NCBI GenBank assembly: GCA_019321725.1
Contig: CM033113.1
Location: forward strand, 1,302,001-1,366,000
From: Paulownia fortunei
Taxonomy: Eukaryota; Streptophyta; Magnoliopsida; Lamiales; Paulowniaceae
DNA length: 64,000 nt
Direction of reading: 5' to 3'
Below the pieces are notes generated by a model. The model ran no database searches. It saw only the letters and a list, made by a program, of their open reading frames with translations, and was not told the origin of the DNA. This document shows positions 14,130 through 64,000 of this stretch, piece by piece. The stretch's first letter is position 1. The number at the start of each line of letters is the position of its first letter. Both the position numbers and the translations under genes were made by a program.

Positions 14130-14990
14130 AAAATTTTGGGAAATTTCATTTTTAATCAACCAACTCTCACCACAGTACACAATGGTCACTCAAGAAATAA
14201 AAGAAGCATAAATGGTCTTTCAAATATTTTAAAGTTGATTTTTTCCTCCAAAACTAATAATTTGTCGATGAATTTAATAGAAATGCACGCATGTGTGTTT
14301 TGCAACTTTTTGTGGGGGAAATTAATTTTACTCGCTAAAATTTATCTTTGTACTTCATTCTCATTTCATTTGTTAATAAAAAAGTTTGTCAATATATTCA
14401 ATTTGGTATATTATAAAACCAAATCATTTAAAATTCCTGCCAAAAACTCAAAATTTTATAGCAATCTTGAACGATTTAATGAATTTTGGTGAGATAAAAT
14501 TCTCATCCAATTGCACCATAAAATAATGACAGTGAATGCCTTGTTTTGAGCATTATATATTCTTGAATTGTGTTGCAGATGTTCTTTTCGCTTGTAATCC
14601 TATAAATTTGTAGAATTTTTATACACGACTGTTACTTTTTTATTTTTGTATTAAATTTAAAATAATCACCTTTCACTCATTTTTCTGTTATACATAGTTT
14701 TAAGTGAGAGTTTTTCACCTTTTTATATCCATATATTATTTAAAATTTACCATATATGTATTTATTATATTGGTGACAATAAATTTATTGATGAATATGT
14801 TGATTAAGTTGAAGAATTGTTTTTGAAAAGGGTTAGAAGTAATGGAGTTTTATAAACTTTGGATGAAAAGTGCAATTTATTAAAAGATTTGTGTGATTAT
14901 TTATGCCTCTTTTATAATTTGAGTGACCATTATATGGCTATGGTTAAAGTTGGGTGGCTATAAACGATTTTTTCACTAAAAAATAAAGTA
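14130..14990. mobile_element. Long inverted-repeat (TIR-like) element, non-autonomous
   Basis: The left arm (about 14130-14240) and the right arm (about 14870-14990) are diverged inverted complements. Both contain the core AATGGTCACTCAA, followed by a similar A-rich stretch with GCATAAAT, and outside it a matching segment around CAACC/CACCCAAC next to Thr-rich DNA. The interior (~600 bp) is AT-rich without a transposase. Boundaries are approximate and no target duplication was identified. Confidence 0.6.
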
Positions 14991-15254: not shown

Positions 15255-16005
15255 ATATAGTACTCACTCAAGTTTCAAAAGAACATATGTAATCACTCAA
15301 GTATAGGACAAAAAAAAAATCGTCACTCAAATTACATTAGAAATACAATTTCACTCGCTCAAGTTTCTTAAAAGGCATCAACTCAATTATGTTAAAAATT
15401 ACAAAATTCATGCAAATTTGGTTATTATTTATAGAGTAAATATTTGGTTACTATAGATCGAAGGAATTTGAAATTTGTAATTATTTACATAAAGCTTTTG
15501 AAATACCAATAGATAAATTAATTTGGAAATTTATTTAGACAATTATTATTTGGACACTATATAAAATATTAAATATATAATTGGATTGAATAGACAAATA
15601 TTAAGAATATTTGTAATTTTACATATGATATACATACATAATGCACATTATTTTTTGTTTCTAATTTTGTATATCTTTAATGTCGTGATAAGATTTTCAG
15701 TATAATAATTAAAATTTTGTTTACTTAGACTTCTTACGTGATTAGAATAATAGTAACCAAATCTTTATTCTAAAAATAGTAACTAAATTTGTTTGAGTTT
15801 TGCAAGTTTTAAGACAATTGAGTGATTATAGGTATTTTTTAATTAATTTAAATGAGTGATGTGTGTTTCTAATGCAACTTGGGTAATTCTATTTTTTACC
15901 TTATACTTGAGTAATTATATATATATATTATATATATATATATATATTTAAATGTAGGTGAGTGTTGTGTGCCTTTTATAAAATTTAAATGAGTAAATTT
16001 ATATT
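15255..16005. mobile_element. Second long inverted-repeat element, non-autonomous
   Basis: The left arm at about 15255-15395 contains three phrases: ATCACTCAAGTATA, TCACTCAAATTACATTAGAAA and CACTCGCTCAAGTTTC. The right arm at about 15795-16005 contains their diverged reverse complements in reverse order, for example TTTCTAATGCAACTTGGGTAA and TATACTTGAGTAATT. The ends share the 'ACTCAAGT' word with the neighbouring 14.1-kb element, so the two may belong to related families. A TA-rich tract interrupts the right arm at about 15917-15950. No coding capacity is seen inside. Confidence 0.6.
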
Positions 16006-42824: not shown

Positions 42825-43189
42825 TGAAAATCACCTCTTCATAATGGATCGGGCGAGCTGAATTACTGTAGAACGAGAATGCTGACCAGTCATGATTTGG
42901 TGGGTTGCTATCTGCGTCACGAATTAGGATTGCCCGACGAAAGCCCTCCGATGCTCAAATCAGTAAGTTGCGTAGGTGAATTAAAGCAGAAACTAAAGAG
43001 TGCATAAGTTTTAATTAAATGTATACCTTTCAATTATGAAAATATGAGGGTATTTATAGCGAAAAATAAAATTTTTATGGACTATTGGGCATCTGGCCAA
43101 TTGAAGAGTTTTTCTTTTGGTCTTTAATCTCCCGACCCACTTTTTTTGCCCATATTGCTTAGGTTAATTCATTTAGGTTAAACCCATCA
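42825..43189 (-). repeat. Left LTR (3' LTR) of the gypsy element
   Basis: It begins TG and ends CA on the + strand, and aligns along its whole length with 48067-48430. Shared words include GTAAGTTGCGTA, TCAATTATGAAAATA and GTATTTATAGCGAA. About 365 bp. Confidence 0.8.
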
Positions 43190-43893
43190 TAAGTCCCCTA
43201 CTCTCGAGTAAATCCACCGAGTAAGAGTTAGTCGAGAGTAACCGAAATTTTAATAATTTCTCAAAATGAGATAGTGTTTTTATGGTACTCCAAGTGGAAG
43301 CCTTTGACATATTGTAGATGAGAGTCATAAATCATCAATCATTCAAATAGACTCCCTTACATTGTTGGATTATACCTACTTTCATAAAATTTATCTATTT
43401 AGGTCAAGTTTTCTCTAAGAGAATCATTTTCAACGACATGAGCTATCAAGGTACTTGATCTTACATTTAGGGATCTTTTTCCTCACTTTGATATTTTCAC
43501 CATTTGTTTTTTGTTCAAGTATTCCACTCAATCTTCTTCTTTGTCTTTTTTTTTTTTTTTTTTTTTTTGAGTCAATATGTCGAACACCTTAAAGGCATCA
43601 ATGGTAGGAGTAAATAACAATGATGATGTAGAGGTAGAACCATTTATAATCCACGGTGATGATTCACTATCGTTGTCGGCAAGCTCCACCACCACAGCCT
43701 GCCTTAGAGTCGCGAGCTGCAGCTCGCCAACGGATTGCACGCGTGCTGCAGCACGCTCGTCCAGCGAACAGGCAGCTCACATGAGCGAGCTGCCTACCCG
43801 TTCTTCACCGCGAGCTGGCAACTCGCTATTTCACTATGTGAGCTGCTACAACATCTTGCAATTCCAGCAAGCTACTGGTGCTCGCCAGCTCTT
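43190..43893 (+). other. Internal 3' region of the gypsy element with an antisense open frame
   Basis: After the polypurine-like stretch there is about 340 bp of non-coding DNA, then a long poly-T run (about 43547-43568). A + strand frame from ATG at 43577 runs to 43981, opposite to pol. Its product is 134 residues: an acidic, Ser-rich beginning, then an Ala/Ser/Arg-rich part built from repeated GAGCTGC/GCTCGC words. Its last third lies in the RNase H junction. I do not recognise the product. Some plant gypsy elements of the Tat group carry an antisense gene between pol and the 3' LTR, and this would be the same position. That comparison is inference. Confidence 0.4.
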
Positions 43894-44327
43894 CGTGCGA
43901 ACTGCTGCAACAGCTCGCCGTTCTGGCTTGGTAAGCAATGGAGAGGATACCAAATATCTTTTCACGTCAAAGGCTTGTTGACATTACTCGGTCCACTCAA
44001 AATTCTATCCTTCGTGAAACAACTTGAAGAAATGGAGTTCTTTATCTGCTGACCTTGAAATAAAACGGTTCAAGGCCGCAAGTCTTCCAATTAGCTGTTG
44101 GACATGTTTGATATGTCGTGGATGGAACATGTTCAAAATTACATCAATTTGTTATGAGTTTGTTTCTATACCCCTTTTAAATATCATATATCCCAAAAAC
44201 TTCCCTCATCGCACACCAAATGTGCACTTTGCATGATTTAGCTTTATCTGATATGTTCGCAAAATGTTGAAGAATTATTCCAAGTCTGACACATGGTTGC
44301 ACACCTGCTTGCTCTTGACCAGCATGT
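43894..44327 (-). pseudogene. Gypsy RT/RNase H segment, copy A
   Basis: On the minus strand, reading from 44327, the frame starts with the Met-Leu-Val-Lys-Ser-Lys-Gln that follows the YxDD box. It goes on through Lys-Cys-Thr-Phe-Gly-Val-Arg, Leu-Gly-Tyr-Met-Ile and Gln-Gln-Leu-Ile-Gly-Arg-Leu-Ala-Ala-Leu-Asn-Arg-Phe, and into the start of RNase H. Several in-frame stops are present. At about 43935 the gypsy coding similarity ends and changes to the Ala/Arg-rich junction sequence that is repeated in copies B and C. Confidence 0.85.
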
Positions 44328-44974
44328 GTGAATAAATGTTTTGCTAATTAATTATAGTTCATTTACTGTATCTAAGTGGTTCTTGAAAGGTTCTTGTTTG
44401 TAGCTGTAGTTTTCTCCTCCTTTTCAAACTTTATATTTTTTTTTTCTCGTTTAGTATGCTTGAAGAGGCTGATGGAAACAGAAGTTGAGAGCTTGAAATT
44501 TGGAATGGCACGTTAATTATGACCCTGCCGCGCACAATTTTTCAGGCATAAGGTACTGAGGAACTGTTATAACCGACATGCTTCGGACGCACCTGATAAG
44601 TTCTATCTACTAATTTGTTTATTTGATAGTCTAAAAGTTCTATCTATTTTTGCATGTTCTTTTGCTACCTTCTATTTGTGGGGATTTGAGATGTGAAAAA
44701 GTTAAACTTGATAATAGTAGATTTTATGCGCATGTTTACTTTTAAATTTCTTCGTGTTGGAAACCAAAGTGGAGCATCAGACTGCTGAAATTTGTAATAT
44801 TGTGTTTTTGTGGTGATTGTAACCCAAAATCATTTTTAGTCCGTTGAAGCTTGGGTAATTCTCCTGAATGGAGGTTTCAATGGTTCAATCAATTGAGGAT
44901 CCGATGGAGATGCATAGGAATACTGAGCTGAAACAATCGGATACAGAAACAGAGTTGCAGGAAGAACCATGCTT
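44324..44974 (+). pseudogene. AIR9 5' fragment embedded in gypsy element, copy A
   Basis: 651 bp, collinear with 51346-51995 in the AIR9 gene and in the same orientation. It covers leader intron DNA, the small upstream ORF, the acceptor before the start codon, and the first 36 codons of AIR9 (ATG at 44868). The reading frame is intact through the AIR9 part and then runs into gypsy junction sequence, stopping at 45062 (64 residues). Differences from AIR9 are scattered substitutions, for example Ile for Thr and Met for Val near the start. It has no AIR9 promoter and no downstream exons. Confidence 0.93.
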
Positions 44975-45407
44975 CGTGCGAGCTGCTGCAGCAACTCGTC
45001 ATTCTGGCTTGGTAAGCAATGGAGGGGATACCAAATATCTTTTTAAGTCAAAGGCTTGTTAACATTACTCGGTCCACTCAAAATTATATTCTTCGTGAAA
45101 CACCTTAAAAAAATGGAGTTCTTTATCTGCTGACCTTGAAATAAAACGGCTCAAGGCCGTGAGTCTTCCAATTAGTTATTGGACATGTTTGATATGTCGT
45201 GGTTGGAGCATGTTCAAAATTACATCAATCTGTTATGGGTTTGCTTTTATACCCCTTTCAAATATCATATATCTCAAAAACTTCCCTCATCGCACACCAA
45301 ATGTGCATTTTGCATGATTTAGTTTCATTTGGTATGTTTGCAGAATGTTGAAGAATTATTCCAAGTCTGACACATGGTTGCACGCCTGCTTGCTATTGAC
45401 CAGCATG
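44975..45407 (-). pseudogene. Gypsy RT/RNase H segment, copy B
   Basis: Same content and orientation as copy A, again beginning on the minus strand at the Met-Leu-Val-Lys-Ser motif and ending in the Ala/Arg-rich junction. It differs from copy A by scattered substitutions and single-base changes. The left boundary is fused to the AIR9 CCATGCTT and the right boundary to AIR9 ATGTGTGAATAAATG. Confidence 0.88.
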
Positions 45408-46069
45408 TGTGAATAAATGTATTGCTAATTGATTATAGTTCATTTACTGTATCTAAGTGGTTCTTGAAAGGTTCTTGTTCGTAGCTGTAGTTTTCTCCTT
45501 ATCTTCAAACTTTATTTTTTTTTTCTCGTTTAGTATGCTTGAAGAGGCTGATGGAAACAGAAGTTGAGAGCTTGAAATTTGGAATGGCATGTTAATTATG
45601 ACCCTGCAGCGCACAATTTTTCAAGCATAAGGTACTGAGGAGCATAAGGTACTGAGGAACTGTTATAACCGACATGCTTCGGACGCACTTGATAAGTTCT
45701 ATCTACTAATTTGTTTATTTGATAGTCTAAAAGTTCTATCTATTTTTGCATGTTCTTTTGCTACCTTCTATTTGTGGGAATTTGAGATGTGAAAAAGTTA
45801 AACTTGATAATAGGAGATTTTATACGCATTTTTACTTTTAAATTTCTTCGTGTTGGAAACCAAAGTGGAGCATCAGACTGCTGAAATTTGTAATATTGTG
45901 TTTTTGTGGTGATTGCAACACAAAATCTTTTTAGTCCATTGAAGCTTGGGTAATTCTCCTGAATGGAGGTTTTAATGGTTCAATCAACTGAGGACCCGGT
46001 GGAGATGCATAGGAATACTAAGCTGAAATAATCGGATACGAAAATAGAGTTGCAGGAAGAACCATGCTT
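45404..46069 (+). pseudogene. AIR9 5' fragment embedded in gypsy element, copy B
   Basis: 666 bp, collinear with 51346-51995 and with exactly the same end points as copy A. It is longer because of a 16-bp internal duplication of GCATAAGGTACTGAGGA at about 45626-45659. The AIR9 start codon (45964) is kept, but the frame meets TAA after about 21 codons, so it is broken. The divergence pattern is not that of a direct copy of A: some sites match AIR9 where A does not, and the reverse also occurs. Confidence 0.93.
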
Positions 46070-47372
46070 CGTGCGATCTGCTGCCATTTTGGCTTGGTAA
46101 GCAATAGAAATATCTTTTCAAGTCAAAGACTTGTTGACATTACTCGGTCCACTCAAAATTCTTCCCTTCATGAAATACCTTGAAGAAAGGGAGTCATTTA
46201 TCTGCTGACCTTGAAATAAAATGGTTCAAGGCCACGAGTCTTCCAATTAGTTGTTGGACATGTTTGATATGTCGTGGATGGAGCATGTTCAAAATTACAT
46301 CAATTTGTTATGGGTTTGCTTCTATGCCCCTTTTAAATATCATATATCCCAAAAACTTCTCTCATCGCACACCAAATGTGCACTTTGCATGATTTAGCTT
46401 CATCTGGTATGTTCGTAGAATGTTGAAGCATTATTCCAAGTCTGACACATGGTTGCACGCACGCTTGCTTACTCTTGACCAGCATGTCATCGATGTATAC
46501 CTCCATGTTGCGGCTGATCAAATCCGTGAACATGTTATTGACTAAATATTGATATGTAGCTCGAGCATTCTTCAACCCAAAAGGCATCACTCTATAACAA
46601 TATATCCCTTGGTCCGTTATGAAGCTCGTCGTCTCTTGATCTTCATGAGCCAATCTAATTTGATTATATCCCTGATATGCATAAAGAAAACTCAACAGTT
46701 CACAACCTGAAGTGAAGTCCACTAGCTTGTCTATATGCGGGAATGGAAACGGAATTTTTGGGCAAGTCTTGTTTAGATTCGTGAAATCTATGCAAATATG
46801 CCACTTGCCTCCTGATTTGGGTACGCGGACTACATTGGCTAACCACTCTAGATATTGGACTGGATGAATATACTTGGCTGCTAATAACTTGTTGAACTCT
46901 TCTTTGATATGTTGAGATCTTTCAGGGCCAAAGGTTCTTTTATTCTGTTTGATCGGCTTCATACTTGGATTAACATTCAGCTGGTGAAGTGCTAACTCTG
47001 GTGGTATTCCCACTAGTTCTTCCATACTCCAAAAAAATACGTCAATGTTATGTCTAAGAAAGGTTGACAAGTGCTCTTCCACTTCTGGGTTGAGTCTAGT
47101 TCCAATCTTGATTGTCTTTGGGGGTTTCCTTGGAGTAGTTCCACTATCTTCAGTTCCTCAATAGCTTTCAGTTTCATATTATCGGGCTTCTTATTCCCAT
47201 CTTTTAATTCTACATCGACGGAGTTCATAAGCTTTCTTTTTCCCTTTTTTTTCTCCCTCATTCTAGATGATTGAGAACAAGTACGCAACCGTTTTTGGAT
47301 ATTTTTGATTAATTGAGAACTGGTGTAAAAAATATTGAGTAAATTGCTCAAAATTGGTAATTGTTCATCCAA
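46070..47372 (-). pseudogene. Gypsy reverse transcriptase region with RT/RNase H copy C
   Basis: This is the only copy that continues into the rest of the polyprotein. From the right, a frame at 47372-47013 carries the stretch before RT. After a frame change, 47082-46333 carries the RT fingers and palm: a Pro-Glu-Leu-Ala-Leu-His-Gln-Leu-Asn lead-in, Pro-Lys-Ser-Gly-Gly-Lys-Trp, Cys-Ile-Asp-Phe-Thr-Asn-Leu-Asn-Lys, Met-Pro-Phe-Gly-Leu-Lys-Asn-Ala, and the catalytic box Tyr-Ile-Asp-Asp. The frame breaks again just after Leu-Val-Lys-Ser-Lys-Gln. The RT/RNase H part (46070-46486) corresponds to copies A and B and lacks a short stretch at its junction end. Confidence 0.9.
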
Positions 47373-47639
47373 GGAGTTGATTAAACCAAGAGAGAGCTCA
47401 CTTGGTCAACGTGGTTCTAAAAATATTGAAGTATGTGGTATCGCTTAACTTATATAGGACAGCCTCTGTCGAAGAGAAGGGGCTATGCTTCGGGGGAAGA
47501 ACTACTAACGGGGTAAAATTCTTCACATAGGTATGTGTTTTAGATGGATAAGTTGGTTGATCGGTATAAATGTGTGACCTCGCTATTGGAGTTGGTGGCA
47601 TGGTGTATGTCGCATTGGTATCGTTTCATCGCTTGACCT

Positions 47640-47965
47640 TATTTTCTGGTCGAGAAGTGTGACTGTTCATTTTCTCTCGTGCTCTACTGGGAGGTGGAGT
47701 TGCAGGCCTTAATCCATCCCGGTCAGTAGTAGGAGAAGAAGTGCGACTCCTTGGGGGGTTTTTGTGGAGCGCTCTTTATGATGGGCTGCAGCAAATAGGG
47801 CAATCGCTTCAACCGCGACCCTGGCACTCGCTTCTTTGGTCATCTTTCGTAGAGCTCATTTAGTAAGTTGGACTCTCGGTTCATCTTGCAGTGGTGAGAG
47901 TTGGTCCATGGGATTGTTAATAGGCGGTCGTCGAGTAACTGGTTGTTCTGGTACTCTTCTTGTTA
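47640..47965 (-). pseudogene. Gypsy gag-like remnant
   Basis: On the minus strand a Pro-Met-Asp-Gln-Leu-Ser-Pro-Leu-Gln-Asp-Glu-Pro-Arg-Val-Gln-Leu-Thr stretch is followed by a stop. It resumes with an Ala/Glu-rich helix (Met-Thr-Lys-Glu-Ala-Ser-Ala-Arg-Val) typical of the N-terminal part of gypsy gag. The capsid core, zinc knuckle and protease are missing before the RT. Confidence 0.65.
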
Positions 47966-48066
47966 GGGGATTGTTTTTTGGATGCTAGTCTCTTGAACTG
48001 ATTTAGATCAGGTTTGCATTTCTCAATAATCAATAAGATTTTTCATAAATGGTGCAAAAAATAATA

Positions 48067-48430
48067 TGGAAATCACCTTCTTGTAATGGACTGTGCAAGT
48101 TGGAACGCTAATCAGTCACAAACTTGGTGGGTTATTACCTGTATCACAAACTAGGGTTAGAGGTGCTGTGGTTGCCCGATGAAGGCCTCCGACACTCAAG
48201 TTAGTAAGTTGCGTAAGTGAATTAAATTAGAAATTAGAGAGTGCTTAAAATTTAATCGAATGCATACTTTTCAATTATGAAAATAGGAGAGTATTTATAG
48301 CGAATAATAAAATATTTATTAATTATTTGACATCCGGTCATTAGAGAATTTTTCTTTTTATCTTTAATCTCTCTATCAACTTTTTTTTACCCATATTACT
48401 TAAATTAATTCATTTGAACTTAGACCATGA
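48067..48430 (-). repeat. Right LTR (5' LTR) of the gypsy element
   Basis: Direct repeat partner of 42825-43189, with many substitutions and small indels. The terminal dinucleotides are TG on the left and a mutated CA (GA) on the right. Adjacent 5-bp flanks of the two LTRs do not match, consistent with age or rearrangement. Confidence 0.78.
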
Positions 48431-49282
48431 TAACATGATCCAATTAATTTGGACCATTAAATTCTTTCAATGATGATATGTTATAACTCCCGAATTAATA
48501 TATTAAACTAGGACACTCAAATTGCACATATATGAATATGTATGAAATGTAGTATGGCATTATGTACTTTCCATTGCCAAAATGGGTAAAACCCTGTAAA
48601 CATACCCAACAAATACATCAATCCTAAATATTACTCCTATAATATTATGTAATATATATATATATATATAATGAGTCGAACATAATAAATTCGATAATTA
48701 CCATTTTAATTAAGTTGTTACGTACAAAATATATACTGAACAATATTATGCGGAGAAGTATAGCAATAGCGACTTTAACTCAAATTTAAACATACATCTC
48801 CAATACACCCCTTTTATAATACTCTCAAACACATCCAAATTTGGGGTTTATGAGAATATATAATAAATCAGGGTTGGTGATTTGTCAATTGTCACTGTGC
48901 CAATAATGGCAGCTCACTGGCTATATTGTCTTTACTAATCCAGCAAAGCTCCACTTAATTCCAAACCACCAGCCTTTCAATCAATCAATCAATGGTTATT
49001 TTCAAATTGCTACCATTATTAATAAAATTAGCACAAATATAATGGGGCCATAAGGCTCCCCTCTCTATCACTAGTCAACCATTCACACTCGCACATCAAT
49101 TTTTGGTCGAGTCTATGTCAAATTTGAGATTTGATTATCACTAAAAAGTCATAATAATTGTATTTTAAATATTAATTATTTCGTTCTACTATAATTAACA
49201 TGTTTGAGTTTGAGTATTATTGTAAGTTCTAAAGTGTTTTTGGACATTGTTCAAGAAAAATTCATCCATATATTGTCAAAAT
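48431..49282. other. AT-rich spacer
   Basis: Holds a (TA)n tract at 48652-48670. No gene or bounded element is seen. The last eight bases (49275-49282) are the left target duplication of the next element. Confidence 0.5.
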
Positions 49283-49723
49283 TAGAAGTGCACGACAATT
49301 AGAAGTCCACGTTGGGTTCGATCGAGCTGAATTTTGGCAAATTCATAAATCGAACACTAAATCGAAATTTTTAATTCGAATTGATCATAATCGATTTTTT
49401 TTTATTTTTCGATTCGATTTTCGATTAATTATTATTTTTAAATAAAATAAAATAAAAACTAAATAATAAAATTATAAAATATATTTATTTATTTATTATT
49501 TTTAGTTTGGGTGAGAAAAACATAAAAAACAGTATAAAAATAAATAACAAAATATAAAAACTTAATTTTTAAAATAAAAATAATAATTCAATTTTCAGTT
49601 TGCTATTAACCGAAATTTAAAACCGAAACTAAACAAAATTAAAAATTTGAAAAATAAAAAATAAAAATTTAAAATTTTAATTTCGATTCGATTCTACCGG
49701 TTAACCGAATTATGTCCACTCTA
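49283..49723. mobile_element. hAT-type MITE with 8-bp target-site duplication
   Basis: GTCAAAAT occurs exactly at 49275-49282 and again at 49724-49731. Between them the element begins TAGAAGTGCACGACAATT and ends, inverted, TAGAGTGGACATAATTCG. The subterminal regions contain repeated TTCGATT/AACCGAA words. 441 bp, AT-rich, no transposase. The 8-bp duplication and ends of this kind are typical of hAT elements. Confidence 0.85.
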
Positions 49724-50970
49724 GTCAAAATATCAAATTTCGTCTAAAAAGTTTTTTTTGTGTAATTGTGAAATAAATGGACAATTAAAATTCATCCTTT
49801 TTTTATGACCACAATAATAGATTGTAATATCAATTAAATTGTCAAATATGATAATATTAGGACAAAAGATACAATAATCATAATAATTCTACCGTCGTAT
49901 GAAAAAAATTAAATTTTGTTCAAAAATATTTTAGAAATTGATAAATGTTTATTTATTTGTATCAGCTGATGACAGTGCAAGAGCAATTCTCGTATATACC
50001 CTTCATTAAACAAACCAATGTCAAAAAATAAATATATAAAAAAAGAACATTTTTATTTCCCTTACCCTCCAACTCGTCGCTTTTCCCTCTGCTGCTGCTT
50101 ATTACCTTAGTTAAGTGCTAAAAGTATGGTGAAAATCTAGTGAAAATATTAAAAATATAAAAATAAATTCGAAAATAAAACCAAAGGGACACTATATTTT
50201 CTTCATTTAATTAAGGGCAGGAATGTCAATTAAGGTCTTTTCGCTGCTATGGCATTAGGAGAATTGCTCTGGCAATATAACCACCCAATTGTTCCTACCT
50301 GTACATGTACCCACCCAGGGGTTGAACCCATCCTTCCAGTCTTTTGAATTCGATTTCAAAAAATCCTTCAATCTGTCCTTTTCGCACCCGATTTTCCGCC
50401 AACTTCACTTTCCAAATTACTACTATTTTCTCAAAAACCACACCAAAACTTAAAATAACAGGAAAACCCCAAAATACGCGCACAGCAACAAGCAGTTATA
50501 CTTTCAGACAAAAAATCATAACCTATGCACTGTAATCCACATTACATTGGCCCCAACAACAAATATATACACATCTGTATCTCTATCTGCGCTGATAACT
50601 TCCATAATTCTCTCTCTGTTTCACTAAACTTCTTCTCCAGTGTTTTTTTTTTCTCTCTCTCTTACTTTGCTTTACGTCTCTCTTTTTCTTGTCACGCTTT
50701 GAAAAAGAGAAAAAGGCAAAGAGACACTAGTATAAAACTGCCATGTAATATGATACATACATTATTGATATTTATGTACGTATAGTTCAGTAGTGATAAT
50801 GTGCTTTCTTTAGAACCCTAGTGTGGGAAAAAATTTCCGGGTGTAGTTGAACTGTCTTGCTTTTCTTGCTGGGCTCACTCTACTTCACCAGATCTAAACT
50901 GTTTTGAGGTAGTAGCACTTAAACCTACACGCATTCTTGTTTTTTCTTGCTGTCACTGTTTTTCTTGGTC
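49724..50970. other. AIR9 upstream region and probable first leader exon
   Basis: AT-rich DNA gives way at about 50570-50700 to a CT-rich tract, as is common around plant transcription starts and 5' UTRs. No coding frame with family similarity is present. The leader exon ends cannot be fixed without transcript data. Confidence 0.4.
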
Positions 50971-51333
50971 TTCTTGGATTAAGTAGTAATGTGGGTTTAG
51001 GCTCAAGACTTGAGACTTGCAAATTTTTTATGTTTTCTTTGTTCTTTATTGATTTTATCGGTTAAAATGTAATGTGGATTTAGACTCAAGAATTCTAGAC
51101 TTGCAAAGTTCTTGATTTTTCTTGGACTGAATTATAATGTCGGTTTAGACTCGAGAGCTTTAGAATGGCTTTTTTGCTGCTGTTCTTGGCTCTATTTGGA
51201 TTTTCTTGGATTCAATTATATAATCGGTTCAGAGCAAGAAGTTGAGAGAAGCATTCCGCTGTTTTTTCTGTCTCTTTTTCGATTTCTTGGATGGAATTGT
51301 ACTGCCGGTTCAGAGTCAAGAACTCGACAGCTG
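50971..51333. repeat. Five imperfect ~60-90-bp repeats in the AIR9 leader
   Basis: Units start near 50973, 51060, 51121, 51204 and 51286. Four of them open with TTCTTGGATT or a close variant. All contain a core like AATGTGGGTTTAGACTCAAGAACTTGAGAC in degenerate form (GGTTTAGACTC, GGTTCAGAGTC). They lie in a non-coding leader or leader intron, directly before the segment that was copied into the gypsy element. Confidence 0.75.
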
Positions 51334-51475
51334 TATTTGCGTTATATGTGTGAATAAATGTTTTGTTAATTGATTATAGTTCATTTACTGTATCTAAGTG
51401 GTTCTTGAAAGGTTCTTGTTTGTAGCTGTAGTTTTCTCCTCCTTTTCAAACTTTATATTTTTTTTTCTCGTTTAG

Positions 51476-51508
51476 TATGCTTGAAGAGGCTGATGGAAAC
51501 AGAAGTTG
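51476..51508 (+). promoter_or_regulatory. Short upstream ORF in the AIR9 leader
   Basis: ATG after a TTTAGT acceptor-like context starts a ten-codon frame (Met-Leu-Glu-Glu-Ala-Asp-Gly-Asn-Arg-Ser) ending in TGA. The same frame is preserved in both embedded AIR9 copies. If the segment is exonic it could reduce translation of AIR9. Whether it is exon or intron is unknown. Confidence 0.35.
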
Positions 51509-51888
51509 AGAGCTTGAAATTTGGAATGGCACGTTAATTATGACCCTGCCGCGCACAATTTTTCAGGCATAAGGTACTGAGGAACTGTTATAACCGACAT
51601 GCTTCGGACGCACCTGATAAGTTCTATCTACTAATTTGTTTATTTGATAGTCTAAAAGTTCTATCTATTTTTGCATGTTCTTTTGCTACCTTCTATTTGT
51701 GGGAATTTGAGATGTGAAAAAGTTAAACTTGATAATAGGAGATTTTATGCGCATGTTTACTTTTAAATTTCTTCGTGTTGGAAACCAAAGTGGAGCATCA
51801 GACTGCTGAAATTTGTAATATTGTGTTTTTGTGGTGATTGCAACACAAAATCTTTTTTAGTCCATTGAAGCTTGGGTAATTCTCCTGA

Positions 51889-54800
51889 ATGGAGGTTTCA
51901 ATGGTTCAATCAACTGAGGATCCGGTGGAGATGCACAGGAATACTGAGCCGAAACAATCGGATACGGAAACAGAGCTGCAGGAAGAACCATGCTTTGAGA
52001 GTGTGAAGAAAGTCTCTAAGGCGCCCAAACCAAATGCCATAACAACACCTAAGGGCACTGGTACAGGTTTGGCTTCTAAAAGAAAAATTGAAGCAAAGGG
52101 TGGTACAGAGTCTAGTTCGAATGAGACAAGATCAACATTGACTAAACCAACTATGAGCAGTGCCTCGCGCACTTCAGGATCAGTTCCAATGACTAGAAGG
52201 AGCAGCACTGGTGGTTTACCTGAAAAGCAGCCAATAGCGGTTACAAAACGACAGAGCGGTGACATTGGTTTAGCAGTAGGTAAAAGAACCAGCTCTTTAG
52301 CCTCAGAACCTCTAAGGAAATCTCTTCCAGAAATTCGGAGGAGCTCAGTGTCATCCATTGGTGCTAAGCCTGCTATCAGACAGAGCATTTCGGAAACTCG
52401 AAAGTTGGTTCCGATTTCACCTGTTGCTAAAACTCCAAGGACACCAACCAGTTCTGATTCAAGCAAGCAAGATTCTAGTAAAAAAACTTCCTTCAGATCC
52501 TCTCAGTTGTCAGTTTCTTCAATCAAGAGGATTTCTTCTCCATCATTGGATAGCACTGGAAGTAGTAGCTCTGTTAGGAAGTCGGTTGCAAAGGTTTCTC
52601 CCCTCTCTACCCGGTCACCCACAATATCCACTGGGTCCAAATCTGGTAGTCTGTCAACATCTCTAGACAGAAGTTCTAGTTTATATGGTCGTAAGAAAGT
52701 GGGAACTCCAGAAAGTCGGGACTCGCGTCTGATTATGCTTCCTCAAGTGGAGGTGAAAGCTGGTGATGATGTGGTAAGAATTCTATAAGTAAGCCTTTGA
52801 AAAAATGTATTGGTATTAACAGACTTTAACTGCTGGTGGACTTACCGAAAATGTTTTGATCTGTAACATTCTATATTCATCCCAGGATATTTTTAGATAT
52901 TGGTCTTAACTGGTTTTTTCACATCATATGTTGAACTACTGTCTAGGCTTCTAAGTGTTTGTGGTACACTTCATTGCATTTTGGTCCAGACTAAATGTGG
53001 CAAATGGGGATGCACAACTTACATTCTATATCTTCATGGCGTGAGCCATGAGAGAGTTATTCCTATTGCAGTGGCTTGAAAATTATAATTCAAACATTAA
53101 ATAATTTGTCACAGTTGGAATGCTATTATTCTTCATCCTTTGTTTCTTGGTCAATTTTCAGTTAATTAAAGGTTCGTGTGACTTTTTGTTTTTTTCAAAT
53201 GAAGAGATTGGATCTTCGGGGCCACAAGATACGCAGTCTCAACAGCGGTGGACTGAACTTGCCACCAAATCTAGAGGTACTTTGTGTTTATCACAGTTCC
53301 TGAGATTTACCTGTTGGTTTTCTAGTTTTTGTCTTTTAGTGCACGAGATTTAGGTTTCTCAATGCACATTGCTGCCAAGAGTAACCTGTGATACTAAGGC
53401 TCTCCATTTCTTCTTTTTTGGGAGTAAATTTACACGCCGATGGTCCTCGATTAACTGCCTTATTCTTTGATTATTTTTGTATGAGAAGCGCTATAATGTG
53501 ATCATTTCTCTGTTAAATGTCATAGTACACATTTTTAAAACTCACATTATCCAGTTGTGTAAGGAATGTAAACTTTGTTTTTGGACTTGGTTCACTATCA
53601 GTTCCTAAACATGAGAATTCTGTCTGCATGCTAGAGCATATATAGATATTTTCTTGTAATTTAGTCTTACAATTTTTAATTCCTGGATTTTAGCAAACTG
53701 GCCCCAAGCTCTTGAGTGACATCATTACAGCCACAAGATGGAGAACATCCATCAATTGTTGCTCCCGAGCTTATTTTTATTGATTTTGGTTTGACACTAA
53801 AATTAACTTTTTTGCAGTTTGTTTATCTCAGAGACAACCTCTTGTCCACATTGGATGGTATTGAAGTCCTGAAACGGGTGAAGGTGTGTATAGATTGCTC
53901 ATTGCCAAATATCTTAACTTAAATTTTAAATACTCAAAGGATAAGTTCAGGGTTGTCTGTTCTTCTTATTCCGCTAGTCAGCATCTTGTTTCTATCTTAA
54001 GCCACTTGTGCATCATAGTCCTTGTTCTACTTTCAGGTTCTTGATTTGAGTTTTAATGATTTTAAAGGACCTGGTTTTGAGCCACTTGAGAATTGCAAAG
54101 CACTACAGGTGATCCTTTTTTCTCGACGATCTACTGTTTAAAGAATGGGATACTTGTTTGTACAATTATATGATTTTCTTTTACTGCAGCAACTTTATCT
54201 CGCTGGAAATCAAATCACATCCTTGAAGAGCCTTCCCGAGCTTCCTAACTTGGAGGTGAACCTCCAGATATTGTTTTGGCTCATGCTTTTCTCACATCAT
54301 TGTTAGGATTGTGTCTGTGCATGATGATAAAACAACTTCCTTTGTGATTTTGCAGTTTCTGTCTGTTGCTCAGAATAAGTTAAAATCTCTTTCAATGGCA
54401 AGCCAGCCTCGTTTACAGGTAGGTTTGTTGCTTTACAAATCTTATTATCCCTGTGTCTTTCAGTTTACGAAAGTCAACTTTGTGTTTTCATAGGTACTAG
54501 CAGCCAGCAAAAATAAAATATCAACTTTGAAAGGCTTCCCATGCTTACCAGTGCTTGAGGTTAGTTGAGCAATTATGTTCCCAATTTTGATTTCATAATT
54601 ACAAAAATTAGCTTTACTGGGTGATAGTTTACAATTCAAGTTGAAGATGTAAGATTTTTGGAATATTGTGAAAATCTTTGCACGCTATGCACATCTAACA
54701 GATGATGATGGACATTGATTTTCTAACTTCAAGTTGGAACTAATAGGAGTCTGAAGACATATGATGGAAAATTTTCCCTATGTCGATCAAGCTAGTGAAT

Positions 54801-57800
54801 AATTCTAGGTCATGTAGATCTAGTAATAAGTAATCAATCATATTTTTATCTTAACATGCCAAACTTGATCGTGATTGCTAAATGCATGGACATGCATATT
54901 TTTGCCATGATGATCTGCAGCATTTGCGTGTAGAGGAGAATCCCATACTTAAGATGTCTCATCTGGAAGCAGCTTCAATTTTGCTTGTTGGTCCGACTTT
55001 AAAAAAATTCAATGACAGGGGTAAGTCTGATAGTTGTATTTAATCTCACCTTTGGCTGCCTTCTGCTCTTTTCTTACTCCTTTTATCACTTCATCTTCAG
55101 TACATAATTATTGAGTTTGAATTTTCTCAAAATTGTTTCAATGGATATCGTTTCTCTTCCTTGCTTTCCCCTGGTGGCGTGTTTGGGGGATATTGTGACT
55201 ACTTTCTACTGTAAAATGTCCATTCTCCAAATATGTTCTTTTTTATTTACGCAATTATTAACCATATTCTCCTTACTATTCACCTGTTCGAAATTCTTGC
55301 AGATCTTACCCGTGAGCAGATAGCAATTGCCAAGCGTTATCCTTCTCACACTGCCTTGTGCATTCGAGGTGGTTGGGATTTGTGCCGTCCAGAACAAGCT
55401 GTAGGTAAGTTTTTAGCAAATCACTCTTGTTTTGGTTTCTGAACAATGGATTCAATGTGGGCACTGTTTGACTTTCGATATTTCTCTTAATTTTATTTTT
55501 CGGTTACATTTTGAGGTAGTCTTTGGCAGTTCCTTCGTTTTTTGTTATGATGAGTAGGATTCTAGCGAATGTGGATATAAAGAATAAGGGCTCAAGGGTT
55601 TTTCAAATATTAAATTTCTGAAAAGAATCTGACAAGCTCAAAGGATGGAAACTGGGAGCAGGTGAGCAGCAGGCTGTTGCTCCTTCAGTGTGCACAGCGT
55701 CATACTGTGTAACTGGGTCAAGTTGTTTAACTGACATTGTTGCCAGTCTTGATGAGTCCTAGGATCTAGAGCATATTGCATTTGACAAATTACTTGTATA
55801 AAAGAAGTTGGTTGTTCCAGCTTGGTGCCTAGCTCAATTTGATTTGTTTTTTCAATGAGCTTTTCTAGTGCACTTGAGATTCTTTTGTACGTAGACCTAA
55901 CACGAGTTTTGTCAACACTGGGAACAAGCTCATATCCTTAGCGAGTGGCTGCCTTCAGTGTTTACCAGCTTCTGTTCCTATGAGGGTCCATGCACCTTCC
56001 TGCAGTGTTAAGCTTGAAAACTGAAAGTTTGTATACTTTCCAATTGCGTCCAATGTGCATCAGAGTAGACACTGTCCTAACGCTCCTACCCATGTGCGGC
56101 ACTGCTGTTTTTCTGGATAAAATATCATACAATCAGGGAGGAACTTTACTTGAATTATTAGATCAGTTTTAATTCATCATTGCGGATTTTATCATTAAAT
56201 TTCAAGTTAGAAGACTGCATAATATGAAGATGCAACTTAATTTTTCAAAGACTACTACCATTTGGCCTGAAACTCACTCAACTATACTGTTCTCTATTTG
56301 TATGATTATATCAAATTAGACATGCAGCAATCATGATAATTGTTTTTCCTTTTCATTCCTTTCTTTGTGTCTAAATATGCTTGTCTTTGTCAACAGATTC
56401 TACGTTTAAGTTTCTGCTAGAACAATGGAAAGAACACCTTCCTTCTGGATACTTGCTTAAAAAAGCTTTTGTAGACCAACCATTTGAGGAAGATGCTTGC
56501 TGTTGCCACTTTGAGTTTGTTAGAGACATAACTGAAGGTAGTGGTTCAGCATTAGACTTGAAATACCAGTGGTTTATAGGAGAGCGAACTCCTTCAAATT
56601 TTACAGCAATTTCTGGCGCATGCGGAGAGGTGTGTCAATAGTTTTCAAGCATTTAAATTTCTGATTCGTCATTTAAAATTAAACAATTGCCTTTGAACTC
56701 TATGTCAGATCTACTTCCCCAAGCGTGATGACATTGGCAGAATCTTGAAAGTGGAGTGTACTCCGATACTGGGAGATACTGAATATCCCACGATTTTTGC
56801 AATATCTTCGCCAGTTTCTCCAGGTATAGTTTCTCTGATAAATTGAGGAAATTGCTGATTATTGAATGCATTTTCCATGTATTTGATGCTGCTGCAGTCA
56901 TGATGCATATTTGCCAAAATTTATGAGGATGTTAGTAATGTATGCATCATCTTGCTTGCATGCCACTATCTGCCAGTTCATTCTTCCCGTAGTCATGATA
57001 AAGCAAAGTATGAGAAAAGGTTATCTCTGAAGCTAGTCAGTCAAACGGAGTGGCCATTTCATTCCTCAAACAGTTTGGAGTACTTGTGTAATGAGTCTGA
57101 CTGCAACTTGAAATCAGCTAATTAACTTAGTACTATGATGAGTCATATAATACTTTCTGATAGCTTCGAAATATGATGTCGTTGATGGTGTCATTTCCTT
57201 CCTCCCCAGATGGCCCAGTTTCCTGTTTGCTTGACGATGTGGCCTGGGCTTAGTAGATAGGGCTTTTCATACCAGTTTAAGGAATTGTTATTCTTTCTTT
57301 TCTTTTTTTTTTTTTTCAAAGAAACTACTCTAAGCACTTGTGCTCTGTTCTCTTCATTTTTTGGACCTTTTGATGTCTGTGTCATTAATGTTTCCTTTCT
57401 GACAGCAAATGAGCTTTGTTCTTCAATATTCTTTGCTTCCTGATGTTGGATATGTGCCCTTCTCTTTTCCTATTTGAGATTGACCAAGTTACTCTCTATC
57501 ATCGCCATATTATTATTATCAATGTTATTTCGATGGTTCTTATTTGAACAAAGTTTTACATGATCTAAAAGAAATTCATCTGGTGGATACGTATTTTCCA
57601 TGTCCATTAACTATTTCTGGGTATCTTTCTGAAGGCACTGGAATCCCTAAGGTCATAAAGATTGATGTACGTGGGGAGCTGGTGGAAGGAAACACAATGA
57701 AAGGGTATGCTGAGGTTGCATGGTGTGGGGGGACTCCAGGGAAAGGTGTTGCTAGGTAAAATCATCCAAGGTTGCCATATGAAGCATTTTGAGTCTGAAA

Positions 57801-60800
57801 CTGTTCTACCCCCCCACCAAAAAAAAAAACAAAGATGATCCTCTTCATGTGAGAGGAACTTATTTTTTTTGGTTTGTATGTAGTTGGCTTAGGAGACGAT
57901 GGAATAGCAGCCCTGTGGTAATTGCTGGTGCAGAAGAGGAAGAATATCAACTTACCCTAGACGACATAGATTCATGTTTGGTTTATATGTACACCCCTGT
58001 AACTGAAGAAGGTGCCAAAGGGGAACCTCAGTATGCGATCACTGATTATGTAAAAGCAGGTGCGAGGTTGATAAATGTGGCGTTCATCCTTATTTACCAT
58101 AGCATGATTGAGGAGTTACACTGACACTTTAGGTGAAGTGTAACATCTGAAAGCTGATCTGGTTGTTAAAACTGTGGGTGCACCTTTCTTGACAAAAGAA
58201 CAAAAAATCATGCCTGATTCAATGCATGTATTTGCATATATTCTAGTCATTTTGCTTCTCAACCTTGAAGCATCTATGTTTCCTGGAAATTGACATGCCA
58301 AGAACTTGAAATTGCATTTTTGTTATTATATTATCTTTGTAATCTTTTGGGTCCTGTTTATGATTTCTTTCCACCAAGAATCATTAATAGCATGAACATA
58401 TAACAAGGTTATTTCAAACATAGAACAATGCTCCTTCAAACATTGATTGTGAACTCTGAAACTTTTGATTGTTCTGCAAGAAATACATTGCAACTGCAGC
58501 TTTGACTGCTCATTTGTCTACTTTTTTAGATGACTATATGACTTGTACTTAAGGAAGTGCGGAATCTATGTCCAGGATAAATACATTAGTGTGTAACATG
58601 TCTGACATAAACTTTCCTCTTGCAGTATTCCGGCATGCTAATTTTTAAATTTTCAAAATTAACTTTTCTGGCTGCCTTAATTAATACTTTATTATAGATT
58701 CGATATCTTTTTCCTTTTTAACCAATCAATTATTTTCTTAAGTACTTTATTGCTCTTCGTTGGCAGCTCCTCCATCTGTGAGTAACATACAAATTACTGG
58801 AGATGTTGTTGAAGGAAGTACAATCAGAGGGGTAGGGGAGTATTTTGGAGGAAAAGAAGGCCCCAGCACGTTTGAATGGTTGCGTGAGGATAAGGATACC
58901 GGGTTGGTGTTCATTGCTTTGTGTTATTTCTGTCATGAAGTGAATCAATTGGTCTATACCACTTGTTTTTTTTTCACTTTCAATTATGGTTTGGCTCAAT
59001 CAGTTGGTCTGTCTTGTCTCTATGATCTTGACTCTTGATTATGCTTTTCGCTTGTTTGTTCTCTGGGTAAGCTGTCCCCTGTTAGTGAATAAAATTAGTA
59101 TGGAGCTTATTTTTCATTTGCATCGTGCAAGTCTTGCTTTCATTCTGTTTTCCTTGGATTTTATTTTTCTTGTGGGAGAGAGGTGATCAATCTGTTTCTC
59201 TTTGGCCATAGAAACTGAGTTAGCTGGTTACTTTTTCTCCTGTTTGCAGAGAATATACATTGGTGTTAATGGGTACAAATGAATATACTTTAACAAAAGA
59301 AGATGTTGGATGTTGTTTGGCATTTGTTTATGTACCTGTGAACTTTGAAGGTCAGTTCTTTCATCATGCAAGTCTTGCAGTTCTTCTAGCCTGCTTTATG
59401 TCTTCTTGTTTGCAGCAATATATAATCTTCCCTGTATTTCGACTATTTTCAGGGCAGGAAGGGAAGTCTATGTCTGTAGTGTCCCAGATAGTTAAGCAGG
59501 GTATGTAACAGCTTATTTTCATTGTGAGTTGGCTACTGTTAGAATAATTAGGGCAATGTTTCAGTCATATGAAATGCTTGTTCTTCTCAATAATATTGGT
59601 ATTGAACTACTTCCTTTTTTTTAAATGTTGCCTCCAAAAGTTTTTAGTTGGCTTTTATGTACTGACTATTATTGTTGGGTCTGCATAAATATATCTTTGC
59701 TCTTTTTCAGTTGTGCAAGCTTGTTTTTGGTTAGTATCTTATTTCTACAATTCCAATGGACGAGTCCTTACTGAAGTTTCCCACTACAAATACTTCTTTT
59801 GAATCGTTTATATATTATAACTCATTATAGTTGGTCTTTCTCTTATTTTCCATGCCTTCTTGAATTTATAATAGAAGCTTAATGAAACAAGTTATTTTCC
59901 AAGAAACAAGGAGTTTCATACAGTTCTATTGTTCTCCTTGCTATTGAAGATCCTCAGGTCTATGCCAGAGCTGGTTTACTTGGAATATTTCTGATTGTTA
60001 GACCTGATTATGATTATTTTGACAATCAATTACTAATAAACTTTATGTATTGTCAATTTGCGTAGGCAGAGGTAAATTGGTAAATAAGATTGGATAAAAT
60101 TTTAGTAGTTGCTACTGGATAAATATCGTAAATTTGAATGCACAAAATATACCTTTCCTTATTAAATTGGTGATCCTGATAAACCATGATTTATTTGGTG
60201 TAAAGTTCTGAACTCAGAAAAAAGCATGTGCACCAGTTGCTTAAATTTATTTGTTGCTTTTCTGTTTCTGAAGTATCATCAACTCTTCTATCCTGAACAT
60301 GCTTTGGTTGGTGAGTTCACTATTTTATTTTATTTTTCTTGTAGTTGTCATTTTTTAATCTGCTCTGTTCATTTTCTTCCTTTTTTCTTTATTCAAATAA
60401 CAGCTCCACCAAAAGTAACAAATGTGAAGATAATTGGTGAATTGAAGGAGGGAAGTAAGGTTACTGCGACTGGTATTGTCACTGGAGGAACGGAAGCTTC
60501 TAGTAGAGTTCAGTGGTTCAAAACCAGTTCTTCTACTTTTGAGGGTGAAAATGGTATTGAAGCATTAAGTACATCCAAAATTGCTAAGGTAAGATGTGCT
60601 TAGCAGCATCTTGTTTTAACTCGTATTGTGGATGCATACTTTCGGTTTAGCATTTTGCTTTATGTAGGCATTTCGCATACCTTTGGGAGCTGTTGGCAAA
60701 TACATTGTTGCAAAATTTACACCAACGACTCCGGATGGTGAAGCTGGTGAACCAGCTTATGTGATTTCTGACACAGCTGTTGAGAGTGAGTATAGTCTGT

Positions 60801-63800
60801 TCAAATTTTATCATTTAATTATGATAAGGAATCAGGAGAGTGCAGAAGTTGCGAAAGCACTGTAATTGTTGTAGTATTTTGATTTACTGTTAGTAACTTC
60901 TTATGTCTCTCTCTTGTTCATTATATCCCCAACTAATTCCTCATGAGAACCGGACAATTGAGGGATTTGGTTCTTATGAGAACTAGATATTAGAGGTAAT
61001 TGATCATACTTTATTTCAAAGAGCAGGTGACAAATTGAGAAAGAGAAGAATGAAAGAAGCGCTATCTATAATTCCTCAGGGTTATTTCTCACCTATGCAA
61101 CTCCTTAGGATTTATCTCTTAATAGCTGATCTGGATCATGTTGATTGTCTTCATTCTCTTTATTTGATTTCCAAAATCAGTTTGCACTGTCCCAAACTAG
61201 TTTCTTACTTCGATTTATTCTTTACCACTCACTTGTAGTTTTTCTATACTGAAGGTGAAAAAGTTACGTACCAGATATAACCTTATGTCATACATCAAGG
61301 AACATACTTGGAAAAGTATACAGAATACATATTTACTCTGTTAACTCTTCTTTATGGGGATGGAGTCAGTGAAATGTGCCAACTTGATCATAAACGATTG
61401 AAACAGAACCTTATGAATAATCATTGCTTTGAACTATTATAAATGAATATCTGTATGGCTTTTGGTTGTCACAGCACTACAACTGTTATTAAAAAACCAA
61501 TCTTTGTCACTTGAAACTCTAATTTAACTGATTTAGATTATATAACGTTTATTTTCTTTATTTTTTACTCAATTTCATTTTCTTTTCCCAATTTTCGACA
61601 TTGCCTGAAATTAGATGAATTGTAATCTTATAGTGTGACTTTCATAAAATGTTTGGTAAATTGTCCATGCTATTATGAATTTAAGCATTTTAGCCCGATG
61701 GCTAGTTCCTGAAACTATGCTTGTAAGTCCAATATTATAGCTCAGGCCTTGCTTAAGGTGATTCTTGCTTGATTTGCATGTCTTTTAACTACTAGACTTG
61801 TGAAGATTCAGCGGTATGCGAAATATTTGTCGTGAACTGTTTTTAAATGATTACTAACATGTACTAGAATTTTTGCAGCTCTTCCCCCAGTCTTAATTTT
61901 TTGTCTATAACCGGTGATTACTCTGAAGGGGGAGTGTTGACAGCATCATATGGCTATATTGGCGGCCATGAGGGGAAGAGTATCTATAATTGGTATCTTC
62001 ATGAGGTATATTACTACTGCACACTGTCACATCTAAACCCTATATCTTACGTCTTTTGCTATCAGTGAAGCGCCTTAGAAGGGAATAGAAAGGAAATTTA
62101 ATAAACATCAGTGACTATAATAACTGTTTGGATAGAGCGTAAATTCAAGCATCATCTTGCTAGCATTATTAGCCACGTGCAAAGGACTTATCACCTGAAG
62201 TATGAATCAACCTTAAAATGATATATTTGTGCATTAAACAAATTAATTGCTACGCCATGTAGGTTGAATCTTTTCATTCTCTTTTATATGATATGAAGCA
62301 CCCTGAAAAAGTTTAACGTGCTAATTTTCCAAAGAAAACAAAATTTTGGAGCGCATATATTCTTTTTAAACATTTCACATACTTGAAGGAACTTAGCTCA
62401 TCAGTTTGTTCTATGTTTTACCCTACCTTTTTATTTTTAATTTCATAATAATGAAAACTCTTCCTTGCATCATACGAAAATTAGGCAAAAATATTTATTC
62501 ATGATTAAAGCGTGAGTAGCTTTTAAGTCTTCCTCAAGCAGGTGACAACAATGTCTTGTGATTTATAGATTTTAGATTTTCCTTTACTACTTTTGGTTGT
62601 TAACTTCTATATTCCTTGACTTCCTGCAGGTGGAAACCGATGTTGGTACTCTAATACCGGAGGTTTCAGGTCTTCTTCAATATCGAATTCCAAAAGATGC
62701 CATTGGTAAATTCATATCTTTTACTTGTATCCCAGTACGCAATGATGGTATTGCAGGTGAACCAAGAACTTGCATTGGACAAGAACGTGTTCGTCCAGGT
62801 AACTACAAAAAGCAAGTTCTTAAGTTCTGGATATTGAGATTTGGTTCCACTTGTATTTTGTATGGGAGTTTGCATTTGTTTTACCAGTTAAATCTTTCTC
62901 AAGTGCTAACTGTGGCTATGTTATATTAGCACTTGGAAAGAACTGAAAACGAAATGTGTGGTTATATTTGTAGAAGCAGGCTGGATTATTTCAGCCTGCA
63001 GTGACAATTTTAGGGAAGAGCTTTGGACGGTTCTCTTTATTGCTGTGAATTGATGCGCACAGTGAATGTGTTTTGATGACTTAGGATTCTGTTGCTTTTT
63101 GGGTCTTCCACTGGGTTGCTTCTTTCTGTATTTCAATTTCTTTTCTCCGCAGAAGAATAAACTCCCTGAACGCTCAATTTGTTCAAAAGTTGGATAATTA
63201 TATTCTCTGCTTGTTGAACCATCTTTCCTTCTACCTTTCTGTTTGTTGAATCATTGGCTTAAGTTTACAAATTTTATGTCAATTTTAGATTGACTAATAT
63301 AGCAGCTTATGTTTTCAAGATAATACATCACAGAGGAGCAAATCCATTGAAATCTGGCAGCTGAATTTCCAAGCCACAGATCTGTCAACAACTGAATTTC
63401 GATGTTTAATAACACTGATATGTGCTGATGTGGGAGGACTCTACTTTTATTGATTGCTTTAATGCTTTTCAAGATTCTTCCTTGGTATAATTGATTTTTT
63501 AGGACGTTGTATCTTACTTTTGGCATGGATGTCAAGTGCCTAGTTTGGTCCTTTCTTGTACACTATTTGATACAAGACTCTGAAGCTCTCAGTAGTGAAA
63601 AGTTTTTTGTTTTCTGTTGTGGATTAATTCTGACATTTTTTTCCCTCCTTGTTAATCCATTAATAGGAAGCCCAAGATTGCTTTCTTTACAAATTATTGG
63701 AACTGCTGTTGAAGGCACTACTCTAAATGTAGAAAAGAAATACTGGGGTGGTGAAGAGGGAGAGTCAATATACCGCTGGTTCCGGGTATTTGATTTGATT

Positions 63801-64000
63801 TGGAGTACCATTAGCATATTCGTTAGGTTTTTGTGCTTGTGAAGTTATAAAGTTTCACTATAGCTATAGCTGATAATTCTGAGAACATTTTTTCCCAACA
63901 AAATTTAACATAATTGCTGTTTCTCATAGAGGCTAAACTGTAGAAATTTTTGTTGCAGACTAGTTCAAATGGCACCCACAATGAAATAATTGGTGCAACT
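51889..64000 (+). CDS. AIR9: AIR9, microtubule-associated protein, N-terminal ~60% (runs off right edge)
   Basis: Exons: 51889-52773, 53205-53276, 53818-53883, 54037-54108, 54190-54255, 54356-54418, 54494-54559, 54921-55020, 55303-55404, 56397-56629, 56709-56823, 57635-57755, 57884-58059, 58767-58902, 59250-59350, 59453-59500, 60404-60588, 60668-60785, 61879-62005, 62630-62798, 63667-63785, 63959-64000 and on. Residues 1-295 are basic and Ser/Thr/Pro-rich, the microtubule-binding part. Residues 296-430 are leucine-rich repeats, about one repeat per 22-24-codon exon (Leu-Tyr-Leu-Ala-Gly-Asn-Gln-Ile; Leu-Ala-Ala-Ser-Lys-Asn-Lys-Ile). From about residue 580 come A9 repeats, each with a Gly-Gly-x-Glu-Gly (or Gly-Gly-Thr-Pro-Gly) and a Trp core. 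AIR9 decorates cortical microtubules and the preprophase band, and marks the division site. Phases agree except at exons 18-19, where a one-base discrepancy occurs (see 61884-61888). Confidence 0.96.
60782..61892 (+). other. Frame discrepancy at AIR9 exon 18/19 junction with tandem donors
   Basis: With the strong donor GTGAGT (exon end 60785) and the acceptor before 61879, the frame is lost. Exon 19 has five Cs at 61884-61888 where the family sequence Leu-Pro-Pro-Ser-Leu needs six. A second GT four bases on (GTATAG, exon end 60789) restores the frame exactly and changes the junction to Glu-Ser-Asp-Ser-Ser-Pro-Ser-Leu. Either a base is missing in the assembly, or splicing has shifted, or this allele is damaged. 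Confidence 0.75.

Follow-up and report, generated by a model that had tools for sequence, protein, structure and literature searches.

A tandem array of fused gypsy and AIR9 segments beside its parental sequences in Paulownia fortunei, probably the product of local rearrangement

Layout and junctions of the array

The analyses presented here describe, within a window of 64,000 nucleotides of Paulownia fortunei DNA, a tandem array in which a segment of a decayed gypsy element is joined to the beginning of the neighbouring AIR9 gene, and which very probably arose by a local rearrangement with two junctions followed by amplification of the resulting unit. Repeat search and self-BLAST resolve the locus as R1-A1-R2-A2-R3, followed by a 4.86-kb stretch (M) and by the source A, to which the AIR9 body is attached; here R is a gypsy segment of ~0.43 kb, A is the 0.65 kb made up of the AIR9 leader and 36 codons, and M occurs once in the locus. 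The elements of the array and its surroundings are as follows.

43891-44327, minus strand: R1, segment of the gypsy element lying downstream of the RT core, native left flank still attached (self-BLAST, core alignment)
44324-44974, plus strand: A1, copy of the AIR9 leader and first 36 codons (self-BLAST, core alignment)
44972-45408, minus strand: R2, second gypsy segment (self-BLAST, core alignment)
45405-46069, plus strand: A2, second AIR9 copy (self-BLAST, core alignment)
46067-46487, minus strand: R3, with the native RT continuation joined on its right (self-BLAST, core alignment, genome search)
46484-51345, no strand: M, present once, absent between R and A of the array units
51346-51995, plus strand: source A, AIR9 leader and first 36 codons (self-BLAST, core alignment)
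44324-44327 and again 45405-45408, plus strand: J1, right end of R to left end of A, ATGT microhomology of 4 bp (core alignment)
44972-44974 and again 46067-46069, plus strand: J2, right end of A to left end of R, CTT microhomology of 3 bp (core alignment)

The E-values of the repeat matches (0 to 1e-158) exclude chance, and self-BLAST aligns the two overlapping R-A-R stretches with 90.6% identity across 1539 columns. The initial annotation had described three gypsy segments with two AIR9 segments between them and the source nearby, and self-BLAST reproduces this with nearly base-level agreement. The array units preserve the parental order and orientation of R and A, a colinearity that the initial annotation had not mentioned. 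The source A and the native R flanks both lie within one 9-kb stretch, intact beside the array. No traces of M were detected within the array at E<=0.01.

J1 and J2 are each present in both units (core alignments), as had been proposed for the two AIR9 segments from the outset. J1 links 46483, where R ends on its right as seen in the uninterrupted copy R3, with 51346, and is a forward-join such as deletion of M (46484-51345) would leave; J2 links 51992, where A ends on its right as seen in the source, with 43891, and is a back-join such as tandem duplication of 43891-51992 would leave. Among 200,000 random local junctions, microhomology of at least 4 bp occurred in 2.1% and of at least 3 bp in 6.1%, and the chance of both junctions having at least 3 bp with one of at least 4 bp is about 0.002. 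Breakpoint microhomology thus exceeds chance, as expected of an MMEJ/MMBIR-type rearrangement.

The two parents and the fate of their copies

Both parental sequences are recognizable beside the array.

46336-47157, minus strand: RT open frame of the gypsy remnant (PF00078, E 2.6e-18; protein relatives)
42930-43174, minus strand: LTR-like repeat, left copy, 82% to the right copy
48172-48415, minus strand: LTR-like repeat, right copy, 82% to the left copy
51889-64000, plus strand: AIR9 gene body, first ATG to window end (Pfam, protein relatives)

The PF00078 match confirms the gypsy RT on the minus strand. The remnant is flanked by the LTR-like direct repeats (82% alike over 246 columns, self-BLAST), whose strand was assigned from the RT and a TATA-like sequence spotted by eye. 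At 47249-47252 the remnant is without about 1.07 kb found in the cousin copy L044.

A genome search with 43560-44323 (40 of 202 candidates scored) gave 42 matches: the three copies of the array, 37 RT copies elsewhere, and two pieces from the left flank of a single cousin. All 37 other scored RT copies begin at 43921-43926, so that the extent first given for the gypsy segment holds for its main part, but not for the left ~30 bases (43891-43920), which have no counterpart in these 37 matches. The ~30 bases are the left flank of the element and are also carried by R2 and R3; since the 37 other scored RT matches lack them, the boundary between flank and R predates the array. A second search, with 46071-46900, gave 40 matches (40 of 361 candidates scored), and each of the 39 matches other than the array crosses the J1 point without A, R being contiguous in those copies. 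A cousin near C9:12.98 Mb has pieces of the left flank, set apart by a longer spacer from an R that continues into RT and holds no A; this copy is paralogous and does not represent the empty allele.

In the core alignments, R1 and R2 are identical at 393/429 positions, R1 and R3 at 372/409, and R2 and R3 at 363/409, a divergence of 8-11%; without the R3 end, where a few mismatches adjoin a deletion and may be alignment error, the distances are 7.4-9.4%. The left flank of the element also holds a plus-strand open frame of 136 codons (43571-43981) that runs into R1; it has no Pfam match and continues as the tail of the chimeric frame of A1. Elsewhere in the window, self-BLAST found four inverted-repeat pairs (15285-15922, 14146-14967, 7725-8240 and 11565-11761; 73-87% alike, arms of 50-175 bases), possibly remnants of small inverted-repeat elements.

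The identification of the host gene as AIR9 stands: of the plus-strand ORFs between 57.5 and 63.8 kb, all seven that were tested match IG_AIR9 (PF23197), five of them above the curated cut-off, and the first exon matches Sesamum radiatum AIR9 at 83% over 68%. Among named relatives, Sesamum proteins are near the top of the lists for the AIR9 first exon and the gypsy RT alike, which points to a plant probably within or close to the Lamiales. A1 and A2 align to AIR9 codons 1-36 and are colinear with the genomic source except for small indels. Each segment starts 543 bases upstream of the ATG of AIR9 and would probably not bring the AIR9 promoter along. Searched against the 509-Mb genome, A1 matches at three places only, all in this locus, and the remainder of the AIR9 first exon (the part not in the array) has one match. 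A search of the literature for AIR9 with tandem duplication and chimeric found no paper.

The open frame of A1 has 64 codons, 36 from AIR9 and 28 from R2; A2 has a stop at codon 23 and has lost the reading frame. A2 (45405-46069) also contains a 17-bp internal insertion, without counterpart in A1 and the source, that has the appearance of a short tandem duplication of the adjoining bases. The core alignment gives identities of 628/642 (A1-source), 619/640 (A2-source) and 614/640 (A1-A2, a divergence of 4.1%, with private indels), with 9 lineage-specific changes in A1, 17 in A2 and 4 in the source. A1 is therefore nearer to the source than it is to A2, a pattern that would follow from a slowly evolving source or from gene conversion. 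The source may have converted A1: core-alignment positions 22-372, an interval chosen afterwards, hold no A1-specific change and eight of A2.

Within the same array (43891-46487), lineage-specific changes are about twice as numerous in the R copies as in the A copies (p 3e-4). The excess persists in two stricter counts, with the six R3 changes beside the deletion dropped or with R1 and R2 only (p 0.002 and 0.0096). We rejected C-to-T decay as its cause, the spectra being alike in R and in A1 and A2 (C>T/G>A in 35 of 57 versus 15 of 26 lineage-specific changes).

Proposed history and alternative explanations

Considering that J1 and J2 occur with the order of the locus kept, we suggest a tandem duplication of R-M-A with M missing from the extra copy. 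An extra copy of R and A would have been created to the left of the original R-M-A, the DNA between them being absent; CTT would have linked the end of A with the start of R (the tandem-duplication junction), and ATGT would have linked the end of R with the start of A, with loss of M. R-M-A may have become R-A-R-M-A by duplication and then deletion or, alternatively, in one microhomology-driven repair or replication event in which the template was switched forward and then back. In a second round the R-A unit would have been doubled, most simply by unequal exchange between R copies, to give R-A-R-A-R-M-A, and the copies would have decayed afterwards. No state with only M duplicated or with only one unit was seen in the one genome. 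The repair pathway, the number of steps and the order of the rounds are what we infer. The identical junctions of both units are the stronger argument for one origin, despite the closeness of A1 to the source. The earlier proposal of a chimeric unit that was made at the DNA level and was itself duplicated is supported. Template switching between the nearby loci, also put forward in the initial annotation, is compatible with what we observe. Its description of AIR9 as amplified inside a gypsy element is better replaced by a duplication spanning the gypsy remnant and the AIR9 leader, since the order of R and A matches that of the locus.

In a tree of 23 distinct sequences from 36 family loci (L007-L043 minus the array locus L024) plus R1-R3, the array copies form one clade (96.8/98), within which R1 and R2 are grouped (90.9/96). 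Across 390 columns, derived states are shared by R1 and R2 only at 6, by R1 and R3 at 2, by R2 and R3 at 1 and by all three at 23. Both the grouping and the shared derived sites would fit an initial event giving R-A-R3 and a later doubling of R-A, which is the order we favour; it is not proven, the AU test giving p 0.24 for each alternative grouping of R1-R3. A site list of R2, inspected by eye for a mosaic, revealed no clear crossover. At a substitution rate of 7e-9 per site per year, A1 and A2 would have diverged roughly 3 My ago and R1-R3 6.5 My ago, to an order of magnitude only.

It is formally conceivable, and in our judgement unlikely, that an extrachromosomal R-A circle returned to the locus, either twice or once as a dimer, through homologous recombination with R. 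Entry of such a circle into R would yield R-A-R, and entry of a dimer R-A-R-A-R, which is the layout seen; however, the circle itself requires J1 and J2, and hence extra steps, and the locus carries no independent sign of any circle. The circular intermediate made from both loci that had initially been proposed is not needed. Capture of AIR9 sequence by the gypsy element during reverse transcription (by RNA template switching), with insertion of an element already carrying the AIR9 piece, would account for the position of that piece between LTR-like repeats, and capture of this kind has been described from plants (PMC13317346). Against this, A is matched nowhere else in the genome and is absent at the J1 point of all 39 other scored copies (40 of 361 candidates scored), so that the fragment does not travel with the element; moreover, the source A lies 5 kb away in the same order as in the array, and tandem copies of the RT segment surround A, joined to it through microhomology. 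We consequently reject retroelement-mediated capture, to which we attach only a very slight probability. Repeats adjoining their source may be assembled wrongly; here, however, the copies differ by 4.1% (A1-A2) and 8-11% (R) and have private indels, although an assembly-error repeat would be near identical, and the locus is on a 23.7-Mb contig of the 509-Mb genome. From the divergence between the copies we judge simple mis-assembly unlikely, and an artefact of assembly has, all told, scarcely any probability.

A separate question is what the array might do. Transcription from the right LTR-like end would cross A2 and A1 in antisense, and could thereby supply antisense to the AIR9 leader and start codon. 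Orientation alone is the support for this reading, and a retroelement-driven source of antisense or small RNA tuning AIR9 seems to us very unlikely.

Significance and comparison with known systems

We regard the locus as a readable fossil of the DNA-level fusion and amplification of a decayed retroelement and a neighbouring gene, in which both breakpoints can still be seen and the other members of the element family serve as a control. It is a clear example of mechanisms already known, none new being shown, and it warns against taking every gene fragment found in an LTR element as captured by that element. What we see belongs to a known class of local rearrangement and resembles ordinary repair of the genome, not gene capture.

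A review on how plant transposable elements capture genes describes transduction, abnormal template switching and transduplication (PMC13317346). As in capture by LTR retrotransposons, an element with LTR-like repeats at its borders encloses fragments of a host gene; unlike in such capture, the fragments are found at one locus only, colinear with the neighbouring gene and absent from the other scored copies. The array also resembles tandem duplication by MMEJ, MMBIR or FoSTeS, all of them candidate pathways here, in its short microhomologies at both junctions, local source and head-to-tail order. A paper on microhomology-mediated tandem duplication (PMC4812662) refers to Vaughn and Bennetzen 2014 for rice tandem duplications. 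Finally, two papers on the Sdic cluster of Drosophila melanogaster (PMC3395120, PMC7475035) describe adjacent units that were duplicated, fused by deletion and tandemly amplified beside the parental units, the Sdic repeat also containing a dead retroelement piece. With Sdic the Paulownia array has in common adjacent parents, a fusion minus the intervening DNA and repetition of the fused unit in tandem. Sdic is a gene family affecting sperm competition, whereas here there are two units only, with no function shown; and Sdic joins two genes and had its RT1C piece inserted, whereas here the decayed gypsy element is itself one of the two parents.
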